Positions 7,414 through 16,499 of a DNA stretch of 64,000 nt are shown here, piece after piece. This DNA comes from Agromyces laixinhei (GTDB taxonomy: Bacteria > Actinomycetota > Actinomycetes > Actinomycetales > Microbacteriaceae): NCBI RefSeq assembly GCF_006337065.1, contig NZ_CP040872.1, positions 124,001 through 188,000 of the forward strand, given 5' to 3'. The notes below the pieces were generated by a model that saw only the letters and a program-made list of their open reading frames with translations, searched no databases and was not told the DNA's origin. The translations under genes and the position numbers were made by a program. The number at the start of each line of letters is the position of its first letter. Positions within the stretch are counted from its first letter, which is position 1.

Positions 7414-8532
7414 ATGAAGCCGACCCCGGCGACCGCGCACGCGCTCACCTCCGCCCGCGAGACGAGCGAGCCGTCACTGGCCCCGCTCGTGGATGAGTTC
7501 GCTCGCCGGGCTCCTGCAGTCACCGCGGCCCAGTGGGACCGGGTGCACGCGCGGTGCGCCGCACTCGATCCGGCGGTCGCCGAACTCATCGCCGGCGCAC
7601 GCGCGGCCGACGGCGGCAAGCACATGCGACCCAGGCTCGTGGCTGCGGCATTCCTCGGTCTGGGCGGCACCCACGATGCACTGCTCAGCGAGGTCGCCGG
7701 CGCCCAGCAGCTCCTGCACCTCGGCCTCTGCATGCACGACGACATCATCGACGGCGACCGGGTGCGCCACGGCGAGCCCAACCTCATCGCGCAGTACGCC
7801 GACGCCGGCCGGCGCGCGGGCCTCTCCGAACGCTCGGCCGAGCGTCAGGCGCTCACGGCAGGGGTGCTCGCCGGTGATCTCGCGATCAACGCCGCGATGC
7901 TCGCGCTGCTCGGAGCCCCGGCACCCGCGGCGGTGCAGCAGAGCCTCGCCGCCGAGGCATCCGCAGCACTCGAACTCACCATCGCGGGCGAGCTGCTCGA
8001 CGTCAGGTCCGAGTTGCTGGCACCCGATGAGTCCGATCCGCTGCGCGTCGCCGAGCTCAAGACCGCCGCATACAGCGTCGCGCTGCCGCTCCGCCTCGGC
8101 GCGATCGCGAGCGGTGCGGCGACGACGACCCGGCTCGACTGCCTCGGGCAGATCGGCATCGCGTTCGGCATCGGCTACCAACTCGCCGACGACGAGCTCG
8201 GACTCTTCGGTTCGGCTGATGCGACCGGCAAGTCGGTGCTCTCCGACGTACGTCAGGGCAAGCGCACCGAGCACGTGCGCATCGCCTACCGTCAGGCCGA
8301 CGCCGCCGACCGGGCGGTGCTCGATGCGACCCTCGGCGACCCCGCCGCGACCGAAGCAGACGCCGCCGCCGTGCGCGACATCGTGACCCGTACCGGCGCA
8401 CGGGCCGAGGTCTCCCGCACGATCGACGAGCACGTCTCACGCGGCATCCGTCTCGCCGAGGCCGGACTGCCCGATGGACTCGCCGCCTACCTGACTGCTC
8501 TCGCCCGATCCCTGCGCGGGCGCACGAGTTGA
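7414..8532 (+). CDS. Polyprenyl diphosphate synthase (trans-isoprenyl synthase family)
   Basis: A 372-residue prenyl synthase that condenses IPP with an allylic diphosphate. The first aspartate-rich motif is HDDIIDGD (Asp109-Asp113), preceded by GGKHMRPRL, the IPP-binding region. The second is YQLADDELGLFG (about 255-266), in which the usual third Asp of DDxxD is replaced; this is common in actinobacterial members. An N-terminal extension of about 25 residues is unusual. GGAGGAGCAGCA precedes the ATG. It is the first gene of the ebo-type cluster and, with the IPP isomerase at its end, gives the cluster its own prenyl-donor supply, presumably for the UbiA enzyme. Chain length (C15 to C20+) cannot be read reliably. 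Confidence 0.9.
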   Translation: MKPTPATAHALTSARETSEPSLAPLVDEFARRAPAVTAAQWDRVHARCAALDPAVAELIAGARAADGGKHMRPRLVAAAFLGLGGTHDALLSEVAGAQQLLHLGLCMHDDIIDGDRVRHGEPNLIAQYADAGRRAGLSERSAERQALTAGVLAGDLAINAAMLALLGAPAPAAVQQSLAAEASAALELTIAGELLDVRSELLAPDESDPLRVAELKTAAYSVALPLRLGAIASGAATTTRLDCLGQIGIAFGIGYQLADDELGLFGSADATGKSVLSDVRQGKRTEHVRIAYRQADAADRAVLDATLGDPAATEADAAAVRDIVTRTGARAEVSRTIDEHVSRGIRLAEAGLPDGLAAYLTALARSLRGRTS

Positions 8533-8535
8533 ACG

Positions 8536-8607
8536 ACACGACACCGACCCGACACGACACGACCCGACACGACACCGACCCGACACGACACGACCCGACA
8601 CGACACG
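8536..8607 (+). repeat. 31-bp tandem repeat in the leader of the cyclase gene
   Basis: Two identical 31-bp copies (8536-8566 and 8567-8597) of a sequence built from CGACA/CGACC pentamers, plus a partial third copy running into the ribosome binding site GGAGGA. Like the tract at 623-693 it yields an almost T-free, C/A-rich leader directly before a ribosome binding site. Confidence 0.9.
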
Positions 8608-8617
8608 GAGGAACGAC

Positions 8618-9892
8618 ATGACCAGCCCTGAAACTCCCTCGACGCCGACCACATCGACGACGACGACCTCGACGACGAACGACGACGACGCATGGCAGGG
8701 CGGCCGCGTCGGCATCTGGCTGATCGGGGCTCGCGGCTCGATCGGCACGGTCGTCGCCGTCGGCCTGCACGCGATGCTCGCCGAGCTCGCCCCGCCGACC
8801 GGTTGCACGACCGCCGGTGAGGCCTTCGCCGACGTTCCGCTGCCCGCCTTCGGCGACCTCGTCATCGGCGGACACGACGTCACCACGACCCCGCTGCGCG
8901 AGCGCGCGCAGTTGATGGTCGACTCCGGAATGCTCGCCCACCGCTACCTCGCCGGCACCGAGGAGGCGCTGGCACGGACCGACGCCGAGATCCGCCCCGG
9001 GTACGACCGCGCGCAGCACACGGGCACGCAGGCCGAGGCCGTGCGGCGCATGGCCGCCGACATCACGGAGTTCCGTGACCGGCACGACCTCAGCCGCGTC
9101 GTGGTCATCGACGTCTCCTCGACCGAGCCGATTCCCGAAGACCATGTCGAGTACCACGACACCGCCCTGCTCGCCGCCGCCCTCGACGACCCTGCGCGGC
9201 CGCTGCTTCCCTCCAGTTCGATCGCCGCTCTCGCCGCGATCGAGTCGGGCAGCGCCTACGCCTGCTTCACCCCATCGGCCGGAATGAGCGTGCCGGCGCT
9301 TCGCGCCCTGGCCGCCGAGCGCGGCATCGCCTTCGCCGGGCAGGACGGCAAGACCGGCGAGACGCTCCTGCGCACTGCACTGGCCCCGATGTTCGTCGCG
9401 CGCGGCATGCGCGTGCTCTCGTGGACAGGCTCCAACATCCTCGGCGGCGGCGACGGCGCGACCCTCGCCGACCCCGAGGCCGTGCGCAGCAAGCTCGCGA
9501 CGAAGACCCGCGGTCTCGTGAGCCTCGTCGGCGACCACGTCGTGGCCCCACTGCACATCGACAACGTGCCCGACCTCGGCGATCTGAAGACGGCATGGGA
9601 TCACATCCACGCCGAGGGCTTCCTCTCGTCGCGCATCACGATGCAGACGATCTGGTCGGCCTATGACTCGATGCTCGCCGCACCGCTCGTGCTCGACATC
9701 GCCCGGCTCCTGTCGCTCGCAGCTGCCGACGGCCACCGCGGGGTCGTGCCCGAGCTCGGCTTCTTCTTCAAGGACCCGTGGGGCAGCGACGTGCACGACC
9801 TGTCGCAACAGGCCGCCGCGCTCGACGACTGGGCGCACGCCGCCGGCGCACGCGTGCGCGCCGGGGCGCAGAGCCAGGTGACGCCGGTATGA
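8618..9892 (+). CDS. Myo-inositol-1-phosphate synthase family protein (sugar-phosphate cyclase)
   Basis: A 424-residue protein of the NAD-dependent inositol-3-phosphate synthase family, which cyclises glucose 6-phosphate. After a Thr/Ser-rich N-terminal tail of about 25 residues comes the Rossmann loop WLIGARGSIGTVVAVGL (34-50). Other family signatures are FTPSAGMSVPALRALA, the GQDGKTGETLL loop (equivalent of the GDDxKSGQT region), LSWTGSNILGGGDG and FFFKDPWGSD. Divergence from the canonical N-G-x-N-D and K-S-G motifs suggests a relative rather than the housekeeping enzyme. It takes the place in this ebo-type cluster where other bacteria have EboD, a 3-dehydroquinate-synthase-like cyclase. 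ATGA overlap couples it to the prenyltransferase. The substrate is unproven. Confidence 0.85.
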   Translation: MTSPETPSTPTTSTTTTSTTNDDDAWQGGRVGIWLIGARGSIGTVVAVGLHAMLAELAPPTGCTTAGEAFADVPLPAFGDLVIGGHDVTTTPLRERAQLMVDSGMLAHRYLAGTEEALARTDAEIRPGYDRAQHTGTQAEAVRRMAADITEFRDRHDLSRVVVIDVSSTEPIPEDHVEYHDTALLAAALDDPARPLLPSSSIAALAAIESGSAYACFTPSAGMSVPALRALAAERGIAFAGQDGKTGETLLRTALAPMFVARGMRVLSWTGSNILGGGDGATLADPEAVRSKLATKTRGLVSLVGDHVVAPLHIDNVPDLGDLKTAWDHIHAEGFLSSRITMQTIWSAYDSMLAAPLVLDIARLLSLAAADGHRGVVPELGFFFKDPWGSDVHDLSQQAAALDDWAHAAGARVRAGAQSQVTPV

Positions 9893-10797
9893 CCTCGCCC
9901 GCCGACATCCTCGATCTCGTGCGCGCGCCGGCCGCGCTGACGGTGATCGGCGACACGTTGGCGGGCGGACACGCCGGTGGCGCACGCTTCACCGGCCGCA
10001 GCTGGCTGCTGCCCGCGGCATCCGTGCTGCTCTACAGCGGCGGCATGGCGCTGAACGACTACGCCGATCGAGACCTCGACGCCGAGGAGCGGCCCGAGCG
10101 GCCGATTCCGTCGGGCCGGGTCTCGGCGCGAGGCGCGCTCGCGGTCGTGAGCGGATGCTTCGCGGCAGGTGTCGCGCTCGCGGCCGCGGGCGGCGGGCGA
10201 CGGGGGCTCGGCGTCGCGGTTCCGCTCGTCGGGGCGATCGTGCTCTACAACACGGTGGCGAAGTCGACGCCGTTCGGGCCGCTGTCGATGGCCGCGTGCC
10301 GCGGACTCGACGTGATGCTGGGTGCCGGCGGGGCGAGCAGGGCGGTTCCCGCCGCCGCGACGCTCGCGCTGCACACGGCCGGCGTCACGCTGCAGTCGCG
10401 CGGCGAGGTGCACGGCGGATCGGTCGGCGTCGCGGGCGCGAGCCTCGCCGTCACCGCGCGAGCGCGCAGCGCTGCGCAGCCACCGGCGACCGCGGCGCCA
10501 TCGATGCACGCCCGGCGGAGCGATCGACGGCGTGGCGGGTCGGCTCGACGCTCGCCACCATCGCGGCGAGCGCCGCCTACGTCGCCGCGACCGTGCCGAC
10601 GCAGTTGCGCACGCTCGACGACCCGTCGGCGGGCAACGTGCGCACCGCGACGCGCGCGGGGCATCGGCGGGATGATCCCGCTCCAGGCCGCCCTCGTCGC
10701 CCGCACCGGAGCGCTCGGCTCGGCCGCGCTCCTCGCGGGCGCCGACCTCGCGCGACGGGCGCTCGGCTCGCGCCGCAAGCGGGGCGACGTCACATGA
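9889..10797 (+). CDS. UbiA-family prenyltransferase (EboC/SCO3242-like), with an out-of-frame internal segment
   Basis: A 302-codon frame starting at an ATGA overlap. The first 190 residues are a normal UbiA membrane prenyltransferase: the Mg-diphosphate motif NDYADRDLDAEERPERPIP (about 56-74) and helices such as VAVPLVGAIVLYN. From about 10454-10476 to 10652-10662 the open frame encodes an Arg/Pro/Ser-rich stretch unlike UbiA. Over the same bases the frame starting one nucleotide earlier gives TAWRVGSTLATIAASAAYVA and TQLRTLDDPSAGNVRTATRAG, a plausible helix and loop that joins smoothly to IGGMIPLQAALVARTG in the original frame. Two compensating one-base indels explain this; assembly error or real damage are both possible. 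The expected role is to attach the cluster's prenyl chain to a cyclic acceptor. Confidence 0.8.
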   Translation: MTSPADILDLVRAPAALTVIGDTLAGGHAGGARFTGRSWLLPAASVLLYSGGMALNDYADRDLDAEERPERPIPSGRVSARGALAVVSGCFAAGVALAAAGGGRRGLGVAVPLVGAIVLYNTVAKSTPFGPLSMAACRGLDVMLGAGGASRAVPAAATLALHTAGVTLQSRGEVHGGSVGVAGASLAVTARARSAAQPPATAAPSMHARRSDRRRGGSARRSPPSRRAPPTSPRPCRRSCARSTTRRRATCAPRRARGIGGMIPLQAALVARTGALGSAALLAGADLARRALGSRRKRGDVT

Positions 10798-11633
10798 CCG
10801 GCTTCAGCATCGGCTACGGCACCAATGGATTCGCCGACCACACCCTCGACGACACCCTCACCGTGCTCGAGGCCAACGGGTACGGCGCGCTGGCGTTGAC
10901 ACTCGGCCATCCGCATCTCGACCCATTCGCCCGCGATGCGTTCGAACGCGCCGCACACCTTCGCGAGCGCCTCGACGAACTCGGCTGGCCGGTCGTCGTC
11001 GAGACCGGCAGCCGCTACCTGCTCGACCCCTTCGTGAAGCATCGTCCGACGCTCGTCGATCGCGAAGCCGAGCCGCGGCTGCGATTCCTCGGCCGGGCCG
11101 TCGAGCTCGCGGCGGTGCTCCGCGCCGACTGCGTCTCGCTCTGGTCGGGGGTCGTGCCCGGCGACGTCGCGCCCGACGATGCCTGGTCGATGCTGACGGG
11201 GCGCATGCGCGAGGTGGTCGCCCTCGCCGACGGGGCAGGCGTGCGCCTCGGCTTCGAGCCCGAGCCCGGGATGCTCGTCGAGACGGTCGCCGACGCACTG
11301 CGGCTGCGCGACGAGCTCGGCCGGCCCGAGGCATTCGGGATCACCGTCGACCTCGGCCACTGCGTCGCGGTCGAGCCCGAAGGGGTCGTCGGCGCGCTCC
11401 GGGCCGCGGGCGCGCTGCTCGTGAACGTGCAGGTCGACGACATGATGCCCGGGGTGCACGAGCATCTCGAACTCGGCGAGGGGCGGCTCGACCTCACCGC
11501 GGCCCTCTCCACCCTGAACGAGATCGGATACCGGGGCGTGGCGGCCATCGAGCTGCCGCGCCACTCGCACGATGCGCCGGGCGCCGCAGCCCGAGGCATC
11601 CGTGCCATTCGCGACGCACTGGAGGAACGATGA
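10794..11633 (+). CDS. Sugar phosphate isomerase/epimerase (AP-endonuclease-2 TIM barrel)
   Basis: A 279-residue xylose-isomerase-like TIM barrel. It starts with SIGYGTNGFADHTLDDTL. Metal-ligand candidates are the Glu of LGFEPEPGMLVE, the Asp/His pair of TVDLGHCVAVEPEG, the Asp/His residues of VNVQVDDMMPGVHEHLELGEG and the Glu of GVAAIELPRHSHDAP. These correspond to the Glu-Asp-His-Glu set that binds a divalent metal in this superfamily. No signal peptide, so cytosolic. Coupled by ATGA at both ends to UbiA and eboA. Likely isomerises or epimerises a sugar-like intermediate of the cluster's product; the substrate is unknown. Confidence 0.85.
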   Translation: MTGFSIGYGTNGFADHTLDDTLTVLEANGYGALALTLGHPHLDPFARDAFERAAHLRERLDELGWPVVVETGSRYLLDPFVKHRPTLVDREAEPRLRFLGRAVELAAVLRADCVSLWSGVVPGDVAPDDAWSMLTGRMREVVALADGAGVRLGFEPEPGMLVETVADALRLRDELGRPEAFGITVDLGHCVAVEPEGVVGALRAAGALLVNVQVDDMMPGVHEHLELGEGRLDLTAALSTLNEIGYRGVAAIELPRHSHDAPGAAARGIRAIRDALEER

Positions 11634-12277
11634 CCCACCCATGGACGATCAGCGCGGTCGGCACCGTGGCCGCCGAGCCGCAGCGCATCTCGGTGCTGTT
11701 CCCCGCTGCAGGGCGCTCGGTCGGGCGCGATCCGATCGAGCCCGAGCACGATCCGCTCGGCCTCGTGCACGGCACCGACGATGACCTGGCCCGCGCGGCA
11801 CTCGTGCGGGCGCTCATCGACGCCGTCGACGCCGAGACCGCGGCCGGCACCGTCACCGAGCTCTACCGCCACGGCGACGACGCCGAGCGGCGCGGCGTGC
11901 TGTGCGGGCTGAATGCCGCGGTGCTGAATGCCGCAGCACTGAACACCGAGCCCGTGCCCGCGCTCGCAGCGCCGATCGTCGCAGCCGGCCGCGACCTCGT
12001 CGCCGATGCCCTCCGCACGAACGACCCGCGCCTCGTCGCCGCGGCGCTCGGCGACTTCGCGGCCCGGGAGCTCGACCAGCACGGCTGGCGTCACGGCGTG
12101 CTGAAGGCGCTCTTCATGGGAATCCCGCTCGAGGCCGTCTCGGGCATCGACGATCGAGCCGACGCCGAGCTCGCGCGCATGGCCGCTGCGCTCATCGCCG
12201 AGCGGCGCGCAGCCGGCCGCGACATCAGCGCCGACATGACCCGTCTCGCCACGATCCACACCACGCCGGGAGGCTGA
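11630..12277 (+). CDS. eboA: EboA domain-containing protein
   Basis: A 215-residue protein with the EboA hallmark near its C-terminal half: a helix ending DQHGWRHGVLKALFMGIPL followed by a segment rich in Ala/Glu/Arg (LARMAAALIAERRAAGRDI). The first 50 residues are poorly conserved and Pro-rich. EboA is a small helical protein of unknown biochemical function found only with other ebo genes; in cyanobacteria the ebo operon is required for export of the scytonemin monomer. Coupled by ATGA to the preceding gene and 2 nt from the next. Assignment rests on the motif and on the unmistakable neighbours. Confidence 0.82.
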   Translation: MTHPWTISAVGTVAAEPQRISVLFPAAGRSVGRDPIEPEHDPLGLVHGTDDDLARAALVRALIDAVDAETAAGTVTELYRHGDDAERRGVLCGLNAAVLNAAALNTEPVPALAAPIVAAGRDLVADALRTNDPRLVAAALGDFAARELDQHGWRHGVLKALFMGIPLEAVSGIDDRADAELARMAAALIAERRAAGRDISADMTRLATIHTTPGG

Positions 12278-12279
12278 CC

Positions 12280-13158
12280 ATGCGAATCTTCGACCCGCAC
12301 ATCCACATGAGCGCCCGCACCACGAACGACTACGCGGCGATGTACCAGGCGGGCGTGCGCGCCGTCGTCGAACCGGCCTTCTGGCTCGGGCAGCCCCGCA
12401 CGAACGTCGGCAGCTTCACCGACTACTTCGACGGGTTGATCGGCTGGGAACGGTTCCGCGCGGCGCAGTACGGCATTCGTCATCACTGCACGATCGGCCT
12501 GAATCCGAAGGAGGCGAACGACCCGCGCTGCCGCGAGGTGCTGGGCGTGCTGCCGCGCTACCTCGCAAAAGACGGCGTCGTCGCGGTCGGCGAGCTCGGC
12601 TACGACTCGATGACTCCCGAAGAGGACGAGGTCTTCGTGGCCCAGCTCGCGCTCGCCCGCGAGTTCGAGCTGCCCGCGATGGTGCACACGCCGCACCGCG
12701 ACAAGGCGGCGGGCACCCTGCGCACGCTCGACGTGATCCGCGACGCCGGCATCGCCCCTGAGCTGGTCGTCGTCGACCACCTCAACGAGACGACGGTGGC
12801 GGCGGTCGCCGACAGCGGCTGCTGGATGGGCTTCTCGATCTACCCCGACACGAAGATGGACGAGGCGCGCATGGTCGCGATCCTGCGCGAGCACGGCACC
12901 GAGCGGATGCTGGTGAACTCGGCCGCCGACTGGGGCAACTCCGACCCGCTCAAGACCCGCAAGACCGGGCAGGCCATGCTCGATGCCGGCTTCACCGACG
13001 ACGAGGTCGACGTGGTGCTCTGGCAGAACCCGGTCGCCTTCTACGGGCAGAGCGGGCGGCTGCACCTCGACCCGGTGCCCGGCTTCGATGATGCGACGAC
13101 GGATGTCTCGGGCGCGACCTTCGAGGGCAACTCCGTGCTGCGCGGGGCGAAGGCCTGA
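12280..13158 (+). CDS. eboB: TatD-like metal-dependent hydrolase EboB
   Basis: A 292-residue amidohydrolase-fold protein. The N-terminal metal motif is FDPHIHM (His7, His9), followed by VGELGYDSMTPEED (metal-bridging Glu), AMVHTPHRD and VVDHLNE (His ligands) and NSAADWGNSDP (catalytic Asp region). These match the order of ligands in TatD/phosphotriesterase-like enzymes. The ATG at 12280 follows GGGAGGCTGACC. It is cytosolic and overlaps eboE at TGATG. In ebo clusters EboB is the constant TatD-type member; its substrate is not known. Confidence 0.87.
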   Translation: MRIFDPHIHMSARTTNDYAAMYQAGVRAVVEPAFWLGQPRTNVGSFTDYFDGLIGWERFRAAQYGIRHHCTIGLNPKEANDPRCREVLGVLPRYLAKDGVVAVGELGYDSMTPEEDEVFVAQLALAREFELPAMVHTPHRDKAAGTLRTLDVIRDAGIAPELVVVDHLNETTVAAVADSGCWMGFSIYPDTKMDEARMVAILREHGTERMLVNSAADWGNSDPLKTRKTGQAMLDAGFTDDEVDVVLWQNPVAFYGQSGRLHLDPVPGFDDATTDVSGATFEGNSVLRGAKA

Positions 13159-14318
13159 TGGAACTGTCGTACTGCACCAACGTGCACCCGGCCGAAGACC
13201 TCGACGGCGTGCTCGAACAGCTCGACGCCTTCGCCGGGCCGGTGCGCGTGCAGGCCGGTCTCGACCGGCTCGGCGTCGGGCTGTGGCTGCCGGCCGAACT
13301 CGCCCGCCGGCTCGCATCGAGCGCAGCCGATCGGGCGCGGGTGCGCGAGCGGCTGGGCGCCAACGGGCTCGTGCTGCTCACCGTCAACGCCTTCCCCTAC
13401 AGCGGGTTCCACGCCGACGTCGTGAAGCTCGACGTGTACCGACCCGACTGGACCGACCCGCGCCGCACGGCCTACACGCTCGACTGCGCGCGTGTGCTCG
13501 CCGAACTGCTGCCCGCCGGGGCATCCGGAAGCATCTCGACGCTGCCGCTCGGCTGGCGCGATCCGTGGACGCCCGACGACGACGCTCGCGCGACCGAAGC
13601 GCTCGTGCACGTCTCCCGCGAGCTCAGAGCGCTGCGCGAGGAGACCGGTCGCACCGTACGCCTCGCGATCGAACCCGAGCCCGGCTGCACGCTCGACACC
13701 GTCGACGACGTCGTGCGCTGGCTCGAACCGCGCCTGGCCGAGGGCATCGACCCCGAGTTCGTCGGCATCTGCCTCGACACCTGCCACCTGGCCGTCTCGT
13801 TCGCCGACCCTGCCGCCGCCGTGCGGCAGATCGCCGGCGCGGGCCTGCGCGTCGTGAAGGTGCAGGCCTCGGCCGCGCTGCATGTCGAGCGCCCCGGCGA
13901 CCCTGCCGGCCGCGACGCCGTCGCCGCCTTCGTCGAGCAGCGCTACCTGCACCAGACCCGTGAGCTCACCGCCGACGGTTCGGTGCTCGCCGCCGACGAC
14001 CTGTCTGAAGCACTCACCGATCTGCCGGCCGACGGGCCCTGGCGGGTGCACTTCCACGTGCCGCTGCATCTCGCGCCGAGCGCACCGATCTCCGCGACGA
14101 CCGAGGTGCTGCGCGCCGCCGTCGAGGCCGTGCATGGCATCCCGCACGGCGCCGAGGCGCACCTCGACATCGAGACCTACACCTGGAGCGTGCTGCCGGG
14201 CGCCCCCCGCGACCTCGTCGCCGGCATCGCCGCCGAACTGCGCTGGGCGGCCGACGAGCTGCTCGCCGACCCGCCCCGTTCCGCTCCCGCTCGCTCGTTC
14301 TCGGAGGTTCGCTCGTGA
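13158..14318 (+). CDS. eboE: Metabolite traffic protein EboE (TIM-barrel family)
   Basis: A 386-residue protein beginning ELSYCTNVHPAEDLDGVLEQL, the characteristic EboE opening. The middle contains NAFPYSGFHADVVKLDVYRPDW, RLAIEPEPGCTLDT (Glu metal ligand), GICLDTCHLAVSFADP (Asp/His) and a late VHFHVPLHLAP and HLDIETYTWSVLP. These features define the EboE branch of xylose-isomerase-like TIM barrels. In cyanobacteria and Pseudomonas the ebo/edb genes are needed for secretion of natural products, but EboE chemistry is unknown. GTGA overlap with the next gene. Confidence 0.87.
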   Translation: MELSYCTNVHPAEDLDGVLEQLDAFAGPVRVQAGLDRLGVGLWLPAELARRLASSAADRARVRERLGANGLVLLTVNAFPYSGFHADVVKLDVYRPDWTDPRRTAYTLDCARVLAELLPAGASGSISTLPLGWRDPWTPDDDARATEALVHVSRELRALREETGRTVRLAIEPEPGCTLDTVDDVVRWLEPRLAEGIDPEFVGICLDTCHLAVSFADPAAAVRQIAGAGLRVVKVQASAALHVERPGDPAGRDAVAAFVEQRYLHQTRELTADGSVLAADDLSEALTDLPADGPWRVHFHVPLHLAPSAPISATTEVLRAAVEAVHGIPHGAEAHLDIETYTWSVLPGAPRDLVAGIAAELRWAADELLADPPRSAPARSFSEVRS

Positions 14319-15721
14319 CATCCGTTCTGCTGCTCGACGTCGTCGGGCTGACGCCCCGCGCGCTCTCGCACATGCCCCGGCTCCGCGCCATGGCGGGCGC
14401 GGGCGCGCAGACCGGACTCGGCACCGTGCTGCCCGCCGTGACCTGCAGCGTGCAGTCGACGATGCTCACCGGGCTCGCCCCTGCGCAGCACGGCATCGTC
14501 GGCAACGGGTGGTACTTCCGCGACCAGGGCGAGGTGCACCTGTGGCGCCAGCACAACCGGCTCGTGCAGGGCGAGAAGGTCTGGGAGACGGCCCGGCGCA
14601 CGCAGCCCGGGTTCACCGCCGCGAACATCGGCTGGTGGTACGCGATGGGGGCGACCACCGACATCACCGTCACCCCGCGCCCGATCTACCACGCCGACGG
14701 CCGCAAGTCGCCCGACGCCTACGTGCGGCCGCCGGCGCTGCACGACGAGCTCGTCGGCGCCCTCGGCGAGTTCCCGCTCTTCCAGTACTGGGGGCCGACC
14801 GCATCCATCGTGTCGACCCGGTGGATCGTCGAGGCCACGCGCAAGGTCATGCGCGAGCAGCGCTCCGACCTCGTGATGGCCTACCTGCCGCACCTCGACT
14901 ACGACCTGCAGCGCTTCGGGCCCGACGCCCCCGAGGCCGACCGCGCCGCCGCGGAGCTCGACGCGGCGCTCGCCCCGCTGCTCGACGATGCGGCCGCGGC
15001 GGGCGTCACCGTGATCGCGGTCGCCGAGTACGGTATCGCCGGCGCGCGGCATCCGGTCGACATCAACCGGGCGCTGCGGCGCGAGGGGTTGCTGGAGGTC
15101 TACACGCAGGACGGCCGCGAACAGCTCGACCCGTGGACGTCGCGGGCCTTCGCCGTGGCCGACCATCAGGTCGCGCACGTCTACGTGCCCGATGACGCCG
15201 ATCTCACCCGGGTCCGCGAGATCCTCCGCGCGCTTCCCGGCGTCGACGAAGTGCTCGACCGCGCCGAGCAGGCGCGCTACGGCATCGACCACGAGCGGTC
15301 GGGCGAACTCGTCGTCATCGCCGAACCGGGCGCCTGGTTCACGTACTACTACTGGCTCGACGACGACCGTGCACCCGAGTTCGCACGCGGCGTCGACATC
15401 CACCGCAAGCCGGGCTACGACCCGGCCGAGCTCTTCCTCGACCCCGCCGACCGGTTCGCGAAGGCGAAGGCGGGCCTCGGCCTCGTGCGCAAGAAGATCG
15501 GCCTGCGGTACGCGATGAACGTCGTGCCGCTCGACCCCTCGTGCGTGCGCGGCACGCACGGCCGGATTCCCGACGGCGTCGCCGAAACTCCGCTGCTGTT
15601 GTGCTCCGACGCGAACCTGCCGTTCTGGACGTCTGCGGGCGAGATCGTGCCGGCGGCGAACGTGCGCGACCTCGTGCTGCAGGCGTCGGGCGTCTCGACG
15701 GCATCGGGGGTGGCGCCGTGA
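14315..15721 (+). CDS. Alkaline-phosphatase-fold phosphodiesterase/nucleotide pyrophosphatase (EboF-like)
   Basis: A 468-residue type I phosphodiesterase/nucleotide pyrophosphatase family enzyme with a GTG start overlapping eboE. The nucleophile region is LPAVTCSVQSTMLTG, with the attacking Thr/Ser after the conserved Pro-Ala-Val. Metal ligands are in YLPHLDYDLQRFG (Asp, His), AEYGIAG, and the C-terminal GTHGRIPD (His). A leading VLLLDVVGLTP supplies the first Asp. No signal peptide is present, so it acts in the cytosol on a phosphate ester or diphosphate. The ebo operon of cyanobacteria also carries an alkaline-phosphatase-superfamily member (EboF). It could remove a phosphate from the prenylated cyclitol; that is inference. 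Confidence 0.85.
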   Translation: MTSVLLLDVVGLTPRALSHMPRLRAMAGAGAQTGLGTVLPAVTCSVQSTMLTGLAPAQHGIVGNGWYFRDQGEVHLWRQHNRLVQGEKVWETARRTQPGFTAANIGWWYAMGATTDITVTPRPIYHADGRKSPDAYVRPPALHDELVGALGEFPLFQYWGPTASIVSTRWIVEATRKVMREQRSDLVMAYLPHLDYDLQRFGPDAPEADRAAAELDAALAPLLDDAAAAGVTVIAVAEYGIAGARHPVDINRALRREGLLEVYTQDGREQLDPWTSRAFAVADHQVAHVYVPDDADLTRVREILRALPGVDEVLDRAEQARYGIDHERSGELVVIAEPGAWFTYYYWLDDDRAPEFARGVDIHRKPGYDPAELFLDPADRFAKAKAGLGLVRKKIGLRYAMNVVPLDPSCVRGTHGRIPDGVAETPLLLCSDANLPFWTSAGEIVPAANVRDLVLQASGVSTASGVAP

Positions 15722-16371
15722 CCGCGGGTGACGCCGCGCGCGGCGGCGCGCTGAGCGGCGCGGCCGGTGGCTTGAGCGGCGCGCTGAGCGGCGTTGGCGG
15801 TGGCGCCGTGACCGCGGCATCCGAGCAGGTGGTGCTGCTCGACCCCGCGGGCGCACCGATCGGCGCGATGGATAAGGCCGCCGTGCACACCGCCGACACC
15901 CCGCTGCACCTCGCCTTCTCGTGCTACGGCTTCGACTCGGGCGGGCGGATGCTGCTGACCCGGCGTTCGCTGCACAAGCGCACCTGGCCCGGCGTCTGGA
16001 CCAACACCGCCTGCGGGCACCCGGCGCCCGGCGAGCCCGGCGACGACGCGGTTCGCCGCCGGCTGCGCACCGAGCTCGGCGTGGAGCCCGTGTCGCTGCG
16101 GCTCGCTCTTCCGGGCTTCCGCTACCGCGCGATCGCGGCCGACGGGATCGTCGAGAACGAGGTCTGCCCGGTCTACGTGGCGGAGCTGACGGGCGATCCC
16201 TCACCGGCATCCGATGAGGTCATGGACTGGCACTGGGTCGATCCGTCGGCCTTCGCGCGCTCGATCGAGGAGGCCCCCTACCTGGTCAGCCCGTGGAGCG
16301 TGCTGCAGATGCGCGAGCTCGCGGCCGGGGGCTTCCTGCCCGGCGTCACGCCCCCGGCGCGGCAGCGCTGA
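15718..16371 (+). CDS. idi: Isopentenyl-diphosphate delta-isomerase, type 1
   Basis: A 217-residue Nudix-fold enzyme interconverting IPP and DMAPP. Signatures are LHLAFSCYGFDSGGRMLLTRR, the catalytic-Cys motif WTNTACGHPAPGE, the Nudix helix DDAVRRRLRTELG and the active-site Glu of GIVENEVCPVYVAEL. The GTG at 15718 overlaps the previous stop (GTGA) and gives a Gly/Ala-rich N-terminal extension. A second GTG at 15808, inside a duplicated GGTGGCGCCGTGACCGCGG sequence, would give the usual family start (ASEQVVLLDP) and may be the true start. As the last cluster gene it supplies DMAPP for the polyprenyl synthase at the other end. Confidence 0.92.
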   Translation: MTAGDAARGGALSGAAGGLSGALSGVGGGAVTAASEQVVLLDPAGAPIGAMDKAAVHTADTPLHLAFSCYGFDSGGRMLLTRRSLHKRTWPGVWTNTACGHPAPGEPGDDAVRRRLRTELGVEPVSLRLALPGFRYRAIAADGIVENEVCPVYVAELTGDPSPASDEVMDWHWVDPSAFARSIEEAPYLVSPWSVLQMRELAAGGFLPGVTPPARQR

Positions 16372-16499
16372 CCTCGCGTCGGAGGTCTCGAGTGCCGTCG
16401 GAGGCACTGGATCGGCGGCGCTGACTTCGCGTCGGAGGTCTCGAGTGCCGTCGGAGGCACTGGATCGGCGACCTCCGACGAGATTCAGTTCCTCCGACG
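16365..16499. repeat. GTCGGAGG repeat element, diverged copy with internal 53-bp tandem duplication
   Basis: Two 53-bp copies (16365-16417 and 16418-16470) differing at one base, each with two GTCGGAGG boxes, followed by two inverted CCTCCGACGAGATTCA boxes (from 16472 and 16491). The duplication begins inside the idi stop region, so the idi stop is repeated at 16422-16424. Box order is the same as in the copies at 6506 and 7119. It occupies the gap between idi and the converging methyltransferase gene. Confidence 0.8.

Follow-up and report, generated by a model that had tools for sequence, protein, structure and literature searches.

An archaeal-type myo-inositol-1-phosphate synthase likely takes the place of EboD in an ebo-type gene cluster of Agromyces laixinhei

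Introduction

The ebo gene clusters occur across several bacterial phyla and in some plastids, and Nostoc requires them for scytonemin export. A cyclitol has been proposed as their product since EboD resembles a sugar-phosphate cyclase. We describe here an ebo-type cluster of nine genes from Agromyces laixinhei, located in a stretch of 64,000 nucleotides (the window) of a 3.44 Mb genome assembled in one contig, in which an enzyme of the myo-inositol-1-phosphate synthase (MIPS) family stands in the slot of EboD. Passages of the published studies give ebo a role in the transport of metabolites across the membrane, from Nostoc punctiforme mutants and scytonemin export (PMC6282210), and hold two proposals: an isoprenoid cyclitol for EboD and EboC, published in 2016, with EboD thought to use the C7 sugar sedoheptulose 7-phosphate with loss of the phosphate (PMC5133447), and a lipid carrier, published in 2018 (PMC6282210). 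The prenyl-cyclitol product suggested in the initial annotation of the window is thus not a new idea (PMC5133447), while its premise, that MIPS and EboD share one slot, is supported below. No paper linking MIPS to ebo was found in the open-licence literature (without supplementary files), and the word 'inositol' occurs 0 times in PMC5133447, PMC6282210, PMC9235831 and PMC6092422.

Results

An ebo-type cluster with MIPS and without EboD

Domain-profile searches with Pfam and NCBIfam models identified nine tightly packed genes, all on the + strand, at window positions 7414-16371 (contig 131,414-140,371). The EboA, EboB, EboE, UbiA prenyltransferase and alkaline-phosphatase-fold enzyme reported initially were all recovered by their profile matches, in the following layout:

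7414..8532, + strand, polyprenyl diphosphate synthase (PF00348 polyprenyl_synt, 112.2 bits), accessory, present in few relatives
8534..8606, no strand, 31-bp tandem repeat of 2.4 copies, after the polyprenyl synthase gene and before MIPS
8618..9892, + strand, MIPS-family cyclase of the ebo class, archaeal-type, in the EboD slot (NAD_binding_5, PF07994, 149.7 bits, cut-off 25; Inos-1-P_synth, PF01658, 99.5 bits, cut-off 27)
9889..10797, + strand, EboC-like UbiA prenyltransferase of the SCO3242 family (274.3 bits, cut-off 260)
10794..11633, + strand, TIM1, xylose-isomerase-fold, ketose-epimerase-like partner of MIPS (AP_endonuc_2, 119 bits)
11630..12277, + strand, EboA (NF035938, 140.8 bits, cut-off 50)
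12274..13158, + strand, EboB, TatD-type metallo-hydrolase (PF01026, 55.7 bits)
13158..14318, + strand, EboE, triosephosphate isomerase (TIM) barrel (NF035939, 428.7 bits, cut-off 250)
14315..15721, + strand, EboF-like phosphodiesterase/phosphatase (PF01663, 212.8 bits)
15718..16371, + strand, type I isopentenyl diphosphate (IPP) isomerase, IDI, accessory (NF002995, 248.7 bits, cut-off 127), alternative start at 15808

As initially annotated, EboD is missing: no gene of the 3-dehydroquinate-synthase-like type was found near the cluster, the single PF01761 match of the genome lying at 1,966,561, and both MIPS domains are present instead. Six of the eight gene junctions, those of the run MIPS, UbiA, TIM1, EboA, EboB, EboE and EboF, show overlaps of 1-4 bases. 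A seventh, between the EboF stop and IDI, exists if IDI starts at the GTG at 15718 and not at the GTG at 15808. The sole intergenic gap, which separates the polyprenyl synthase gene from MIPS (8533-8617, 85 bases), consists mostly of the tandem repeat, followed by a ribosome-binding-like GGAGG; a scan for promoters and terminators found none. MIPS, EboE and their neighbours recur across the Actinomycetota sample, in 7 genera belonging to 6 families, so the arrangement is not due to chance.

EboD and MIPS exclude each other at EboE loci

Among 396 Actinomycetota genomes, 27 have EboE, 26 of them above the cut-off and one (G244) with a split gene. A search of the same genomes with the window MIPS gave matches in 84 genomes at E <= 1e-20, which fall in two score groups, with 26 matches of at least 281 bits in 25 genomes and the remainder at 188 bits or less. 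The ebo-class MIPS was present in 25/27 EboE-positive and 0/369 EboE-negative genomes (Fisher p 1e-37, kinship ignored), the two EboE-positive genomes without it being G301, which has EboD instead, and G244. The gene adjoins EboE in 25 of the 26 matches and the remaining one, in G335, goes with a truncated copy of the cluster.

Two of these genomes showed irregular copies. The cluster MIPS of G335 is truncated to query residues 30-136 (L040 14425-15081), and a different contig of this genome carries an intact copy of the ebo clade (L155 9496-10968). At the G244 locus (L061 6642-11628), EboE is split over two frames and UbiA is in pieces, which corresponds either to a decaying cluster or to an assembly error; no MIPS lies near this EboE and a MIPS-TIM1 pair is found on another contig.

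The cyclase was then read at each EboE locus. The 29 actinobacterial clusters of the 27 genomes, window included, comprised 26 with MIPS (one truncated), 1 with EboD and 2 with neither. The 80 loci of other phyla, which are the best 80 of 586 by similarity to EboD-type EboE and so are uninformative on the frequency of each type, comprised 0 with MIPS, 76 with EboD and 4 with neither, and 24 of 37 genomes chosen from their hosts have no MIPS anywhere. The 47 plasmid records (29 MIPS, 15 EboD, 3 neither; coordinates compared by eye, one further Streptomyces record set aside) include 28 actinobacterial MIPS records, many of which are near relatives. Four Chloroflexota loci all have EboD and two further loci of the family of the window both have MIPS. 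In total, 162 EboE loci were classified, 57 with MIPS, 96 with EboD, 9 with neither and 0 with both, and the mutual exclusion anticipated in the initial annotation was thus observed. These counts support that EboD and MIPS, two non-homologous sugar-phosphate cyclases, share one slot and exclude each other.

Among the loci with neither cyclase, L104 and the plasmid records L163-L165 also miss other ebo genes, and L075 is from the genus Nostoc, whose members can have eboD elsewhere according to a passage of PMC5133447. The Streptomyces plasmid L163 holds a lone EboE gene (8965-10143) beside type II polyketide synthase (PKS) genes, at the place taken by a complete MIPS-type cluster in the related plasmid L161. 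For the Lewinella locus L138, which has no EboD, a MIPS gene elsewhere was considered as a replacement in trans and rejected, since this gene lies in a separate YcaO/PIG-L-like cluster.

The cyclase is of the archaeal MIPS type

The mycothiol-type MIPS model TIGR03450 gave 20.7-20.9 bits with the window MIPS, far below its cut-off of 638. The nearest solved relative is the MIPS of Archaeoglobus fulgidus (214 bits, compared to 31 bits for M. tuberculosis Ino1), and the AlphaFold model of the window enzyme (mean predicted local distance difference test score, pLDDT, of 89) superposed on the A. fulgidus structure (PDB 1u1i) with a template modelling (TM) score of 0.84 normalised by query length and 34% identity, and on M. 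tuberculosis Ino1 (PDB 1gr0) with a TM score of 0.56. In the trees, the ebo-class MIPS form their own clade, separate from the mycothiol-type MIPS.

The residues which we take to be catalytic in the A. fulgidus enzyme (D225, N255, D261, K274, K278, K306, D332 and K367), among which K278, K367 and N255 occur as PDB mutants, correspond to D243, N273, D279, K292, K296, K324, D350 and K385 in the window MIPS, where all are retained. The eight positions are kept in 31/31 aligned ebo-clade sequences (26 + 5, the truncated L040 copy left out). The window MIPS, an archaeal-type enzyme by its sequence, is probably active because its catalytic residues are kept. We found also that residue 277 (259 in A. 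fulgidus) is a glycine in 31/31 actinobacterial ebo-clade MIPS, an asparagine in the 29 others compared and an aspartate in A. fulgidus. The resulting GGGDG signature is specific to the actinobacterial clade, the Gemmatirosa and haloarchaeal cluster copies described below being without it. Separately, an Arthrobacter plasmid (L182 5968-7137) encodes a divergent MIPS-like protein in which a serine replaces the lysine of the DxK(S/T) motif of the other MIPS compared, near genes for a sulfotransferase and an adenylylsulfate kinase.

MIPS is accompanied by TIM1

By tblastn, TIM1 was found with MIPS in 24/25 actinobacterial MIPS loci outside the window (absent from L045, and present without MIPS in L035) and in 0/77 EboD loci compared. 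The swap is therefore of EboD for MIPS plus TIM1: the initial view that two non-homologous cyclases can fill the slot agrees with the exclusion and with the repeated exchange reported below, but the exchange is not one for one. The TIM1 model (mean pLDDT 95.8) was closest to UlaE and D-tagatose 3-epimerases, with TM scores of 0.72-0.81, and E155, D186, H189, H222, H224 and E253, acidic and histidine residues that presumably form its site, are invariant in 14 rows. Such an epimerase fold points to the handling of a keto form, either an inosose or a ketose. A fusion of actinobacterial EboA to a xylose-isomerase-like domain was noted earlier, without MIPS being named in the passage concerned (PMC5133447). 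In the window, TIM1 and EboA are separate genes with a 4-base overlap, and they form one joint open frame in L059.

The pair was also found in a second cluster type, with YcaO, Gfo/Idh, a PIG-L deacetylase and mostly also a glycosyltransferase:

L180 7983-17092, Roseomonas, MIPS/TIM1/YcaO cluster, from annotation
L181 7590-16291, Hymenobacter, MIPS/TIM1/YcaO cluster, from annotation
L169 1441-10975, Lewinella, MIPS/TIM1/YcaO cluster, read from open frames
L156, an actinobacterium, partial MIPS/TIM1/YcaO cluster, read from open frames

These clusters possibly correspond to an undescribed inositol-derived pathway. As MIPS and TIM1 travel jointly in both the ebo and the YcaO clusters, the pair looks like a functional unit.

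Evidence for two or more exchanges of the cyclase

In Gemmatirosa kalamazoonensis (Gemmatimonadota), EboE, EboB, EboF, UbiA, MIPS and TIM1 occur together, with no EboD on the same record. In a tree of EboF+EboB (27 rows hand-picked from 57), Gemmatirosa was placed inside the EboD-type clusters (Acidobacteriota, Abditibacteriota, Chloroflexota, Deinococcota and others) with a support of 100/100; a tree with all MIPS-bearing clusters as one clade was rejected by the approximately unbiased (AU) test (p-AU 1e-27), as was the idea that MIPS-type clusters arose only once. A faster EboF tree, which included all 57 rows, likewise placed Gemmatirosa with the EboD types, at a support of only 81. Since MIPS and TIM1 occur here within an EboD-type lineage, the trees indicate that the cyclase was changed at least twice, a point which rests on one Gemmatirosa record. 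When the MIPS protein was tested in turn, grouping the actinobacterial, haloarchaeal and Gemmatirosa cluster copies in one clade was not rejected (p-AU 0.363; 29 rows, excluding L155, L177, L182, the A. fulgidus row and other near relatives), so the Gemmatirosa MIPS may have been acquired by transfer.

Genes for EboB-, UbiA-, MIPS- and EboF-like (PF01663-like) proteins with at least two TIM barrels were found on haloarchaeal plasmids of Halobaculum salinum, Natronococcus sp. CG52 and Halocatena salina, as the following sets:

L176 2109-8659, haloarchaeal ebo-like set
L178 936-7609, haloarchaeal ebo-like set
L179 1238-7539, haloarchaeal ebo-like set

These sets have no EboA and gave no match to the EboE profile made here, and they are ebo-like, not ebo. 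The NCBIfam EboE model gave a below-cut-off match in Haloferax volcanii.

The prenyltransferase, the other genes and the neighbourhood

The window UbiA protein scored 124.8 bits with the EboC model, below its cut-off of 250, and was assigned to the SCO3242 family; it carries the motifs NDxxDxxxD and SRGEVHGG, and NDxxDxxxD and SxGEVHGG are common to EboC. The stricter EboA model NF035937 was not reached (49.6 bits, cut-off 320). No dedicated EboB or EboF model matched the window proteins in the profile search; compared with cyanobacterial and Bacteroidota ebo loci, EboB and EboF gave about 290-340 and 410-475 bits, respectively. Of the 28 further actinobacterial loci, 27 have an EboB 64-79% identical to that of the window, and the remaining one, L042, has an EboB that is 42% identical. 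The polyprenyl synthase and IPP isomerase, which had been described as additions at the cluster ends, are both there, but they are not core to the cluster, being found within the fetched stretch in 4/28 and 2/28 other actinobacterial loci, respectively. A 53-bp tandem repeat (2.1 copies, 96% match, 16360-16470) spans the end of the IPP isomerase gene.

In Streptomyces, full copies adjoin type II PKS or nonribosomal peptide synthetase (NRPS) genes, and SCO3242 (UbiA) and SCO3243 (MIPS) of Streptomyces coelicolor are, by annotation, part of the calcium-dependent antibiotic (CDA) lipopeptide cluster (PMC3610822). By analogy with scytonemin in Nostoc, such varied biosynthetic neighbours would fit a service role for different cargo. 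On a Streptomyces plasmid, a gene of the ScyD/ScyE family (L160 6177-7376) lies directly upstream of MIPS; in Nostoc, ScyE has its role downstream of ebo export, and this single case among the actinobacterial loci searched was not used as evidence.

Discussion

We consider it likely, from the sequences compared, that in this ebo-type operon an archaeal-type MIPS, competent for catalysis, replaces EboD and performs the ring formation together with TIM1. From the gene content, the exclusion of EboD, the repeated exchange and the intact active-site residues, we infer a pathway in which substrate, order of steps, product and role are proposals. MIPS would cyclise a hexose phosphate, most likely glucose 6-phosphate, with its own nicotinamide adenine dinucleotide (NAD), to an inositol- or inosose-phosphate, and TIM1 might epimerise or isomerise the keto form. 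EboF would hydrolyse the phosphate ester, EboB and EboE would modify the ring, and UbiA would attach a prenyl chain, for which the polyprenyl synthase and IPP isomerase encoded in this operon may be the source. The resulting amphiphile could help metabolites across the membrane.

Could this MIPS merely be placed in the operon and supply inositol 1-phosphate for primary needs, such as phosphatidylinositol and mycothiol? This appears very improbable. A sole housekeeping synthase was named in the initial annotation as a point that would speak against its reading, and the window MIPS is indeed the sole PF01658 gene of its genome, as it is the sole MIPS in the congener G237, but its class and the distribution of MIPS in the family, with 95/120 genomes (congener G206 included) without any, make such a function improbable. 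Moreover, 23/25 genomes with an ebo-class MIPS hold another MIPS, and the ebo-class gene goes with EboE. The MshA comparison, which is relative only, showed no convincing MshA in three genomes of the genus (G000, 147.7 bits, G237 and G206; partial matches of 144-148 bits), but the cut-off of 462.5 was reached by 0/15 family members searched, with or without MIPS, and several MIPS-less ones gave about 300 bits. Five searched family members have a non-ebo MIPS, and in 4 of them an MshA-like gene (300-348 bits) is found no more than about 4 kb from it. A housekeeping inositol synthase was rejected as the main explanation on MIPS class and distribution.

Several points weigh against a replacement of EboD by MIPS and TIM1. 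MIPS forms C6 rings with the phosphate retained, compared to the C7 substrate and lost phosphate of EboD, so the products of the two cluster types need not be the same and may differ. Because of the fixed glycine at a site that is elsewhere asparagine or aspartate, the substrate may be other than glucose 6-phosphate. The exclusion largely tracks phylum and the plasmid records are related, so that the loci cannot count as independent; with contigs of only 3-8 kb among the 80, a second cyclase further away may have escaped notice; nine loci are without a nearby cyclase, L035, L061, L090 and L138 with no ready reason. Lastly, EboC homologues accepted quinolines for farnesylation in vitro but neither phenols nor catechols (PMC9235831). 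The different substrates, the company of TIM1, the G277 signature and the varied biosynthetic genes beside the Streptomyces copies would suit an actinobacterial operon making a different dedicated prenylated metabolite, with the scaffolding genes in common with ebo and the chemistry not, MIPS and EboD feeding unrelated products. We find this unlikely, as EboA, EboB, EboE, EboF and the UbiA motifs are present in both cluster types and the Gemmatirosa MIPS and TIM1, inside an EboD-type lineage, are easiest to understand with a shared set of downstream enzymes supplied by either cyclase. Somewhat less doubtful is that the natural acceptor of UbiA is aromatic, the cyclitol being prenylated late or not at all and serving as head group, or being aromatised first. 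Consistent with this, 8-hydroxyquinoline-2-carboxylic acid is farnesylated in vitro by EboC homologues (PMC9235831), and scytonemin, the monomer of which serves as cargo in Nostoc, has an indole-phenol structure (PMC6282210). However, the acceptors named as tested in the relevant passages of PMC9235831 are all aromatic, so cyclitols may also be accepted, and EboC is close to the digeranylgeranylglycerylphosphate synthases (PMC6282210), with a family of this type giving 63 bits for the window UbiA.

The replacement of EboD by MIPS and TIM1 thus remains the preferred reading. A second non-homologous cyclase in the same place, excluding EboD and exchanged at least twice, gives independent evidence for ring formation by ebo. 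The reaction and usual substrate of MIPS are well known; therefore the first ebo step becomes directly assayable, with Streptomyces as a workable model. A wider scheme, attractive, unproven and tentative, is that both kinds of ebo cluster make a cyclitol-headed prenyl lipid that would act as a general carrier of secondary metabolites, the ring being made by EboD or by MIPS and an epimerase, with the same chemistry in haloarchaea. If true, this lipid-carrier system would span two domains of life.

Comparison with known systems

With the ketose 3-epimerases (UlaE, D-tagatose 3-epimerase), TIM1 has its fold in common, at about 16-20% identity, and differs in being genetically tied to MIPS. The window MIPS, known here from sequence and model, resembles the archaeal MIPS of A. 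fulgidus (PDB 1u1i) in fold and catalytic residues; it differs by the glycine that replaces the aspartate at position 259 and by its location in an ebo operon. The mycothiol-type MIPS (TIGR03450; Ino1, PDB 1gr0) belong to the same superfamily, in a separate clade. Ari2, a MIPS homologue, makes a five-membered ring from fructose 6-phosphate. As part of aristeromycin biosynthesis (PDB 6k96; PMC11348189), it is likewise a MIPS-family enzyme recruited to secondary metabolism, and its structure compares with the window MIPS model at TM scores of 0.58-0.61 and 16% identity. Finally, the cluster is like the ebo/edb operon (eboABCDEF; PMC5133447, PMC6282210) in its contiguous and co-oriented EboA, EboB, EboE, EboF-like and EboC-like UbiA genes, and differs from it in having no EboD, an archaeal-type MIPS with TIM1, a UbiA of the SCO3242 family, and an attached polyprenyl synthase and IDI.

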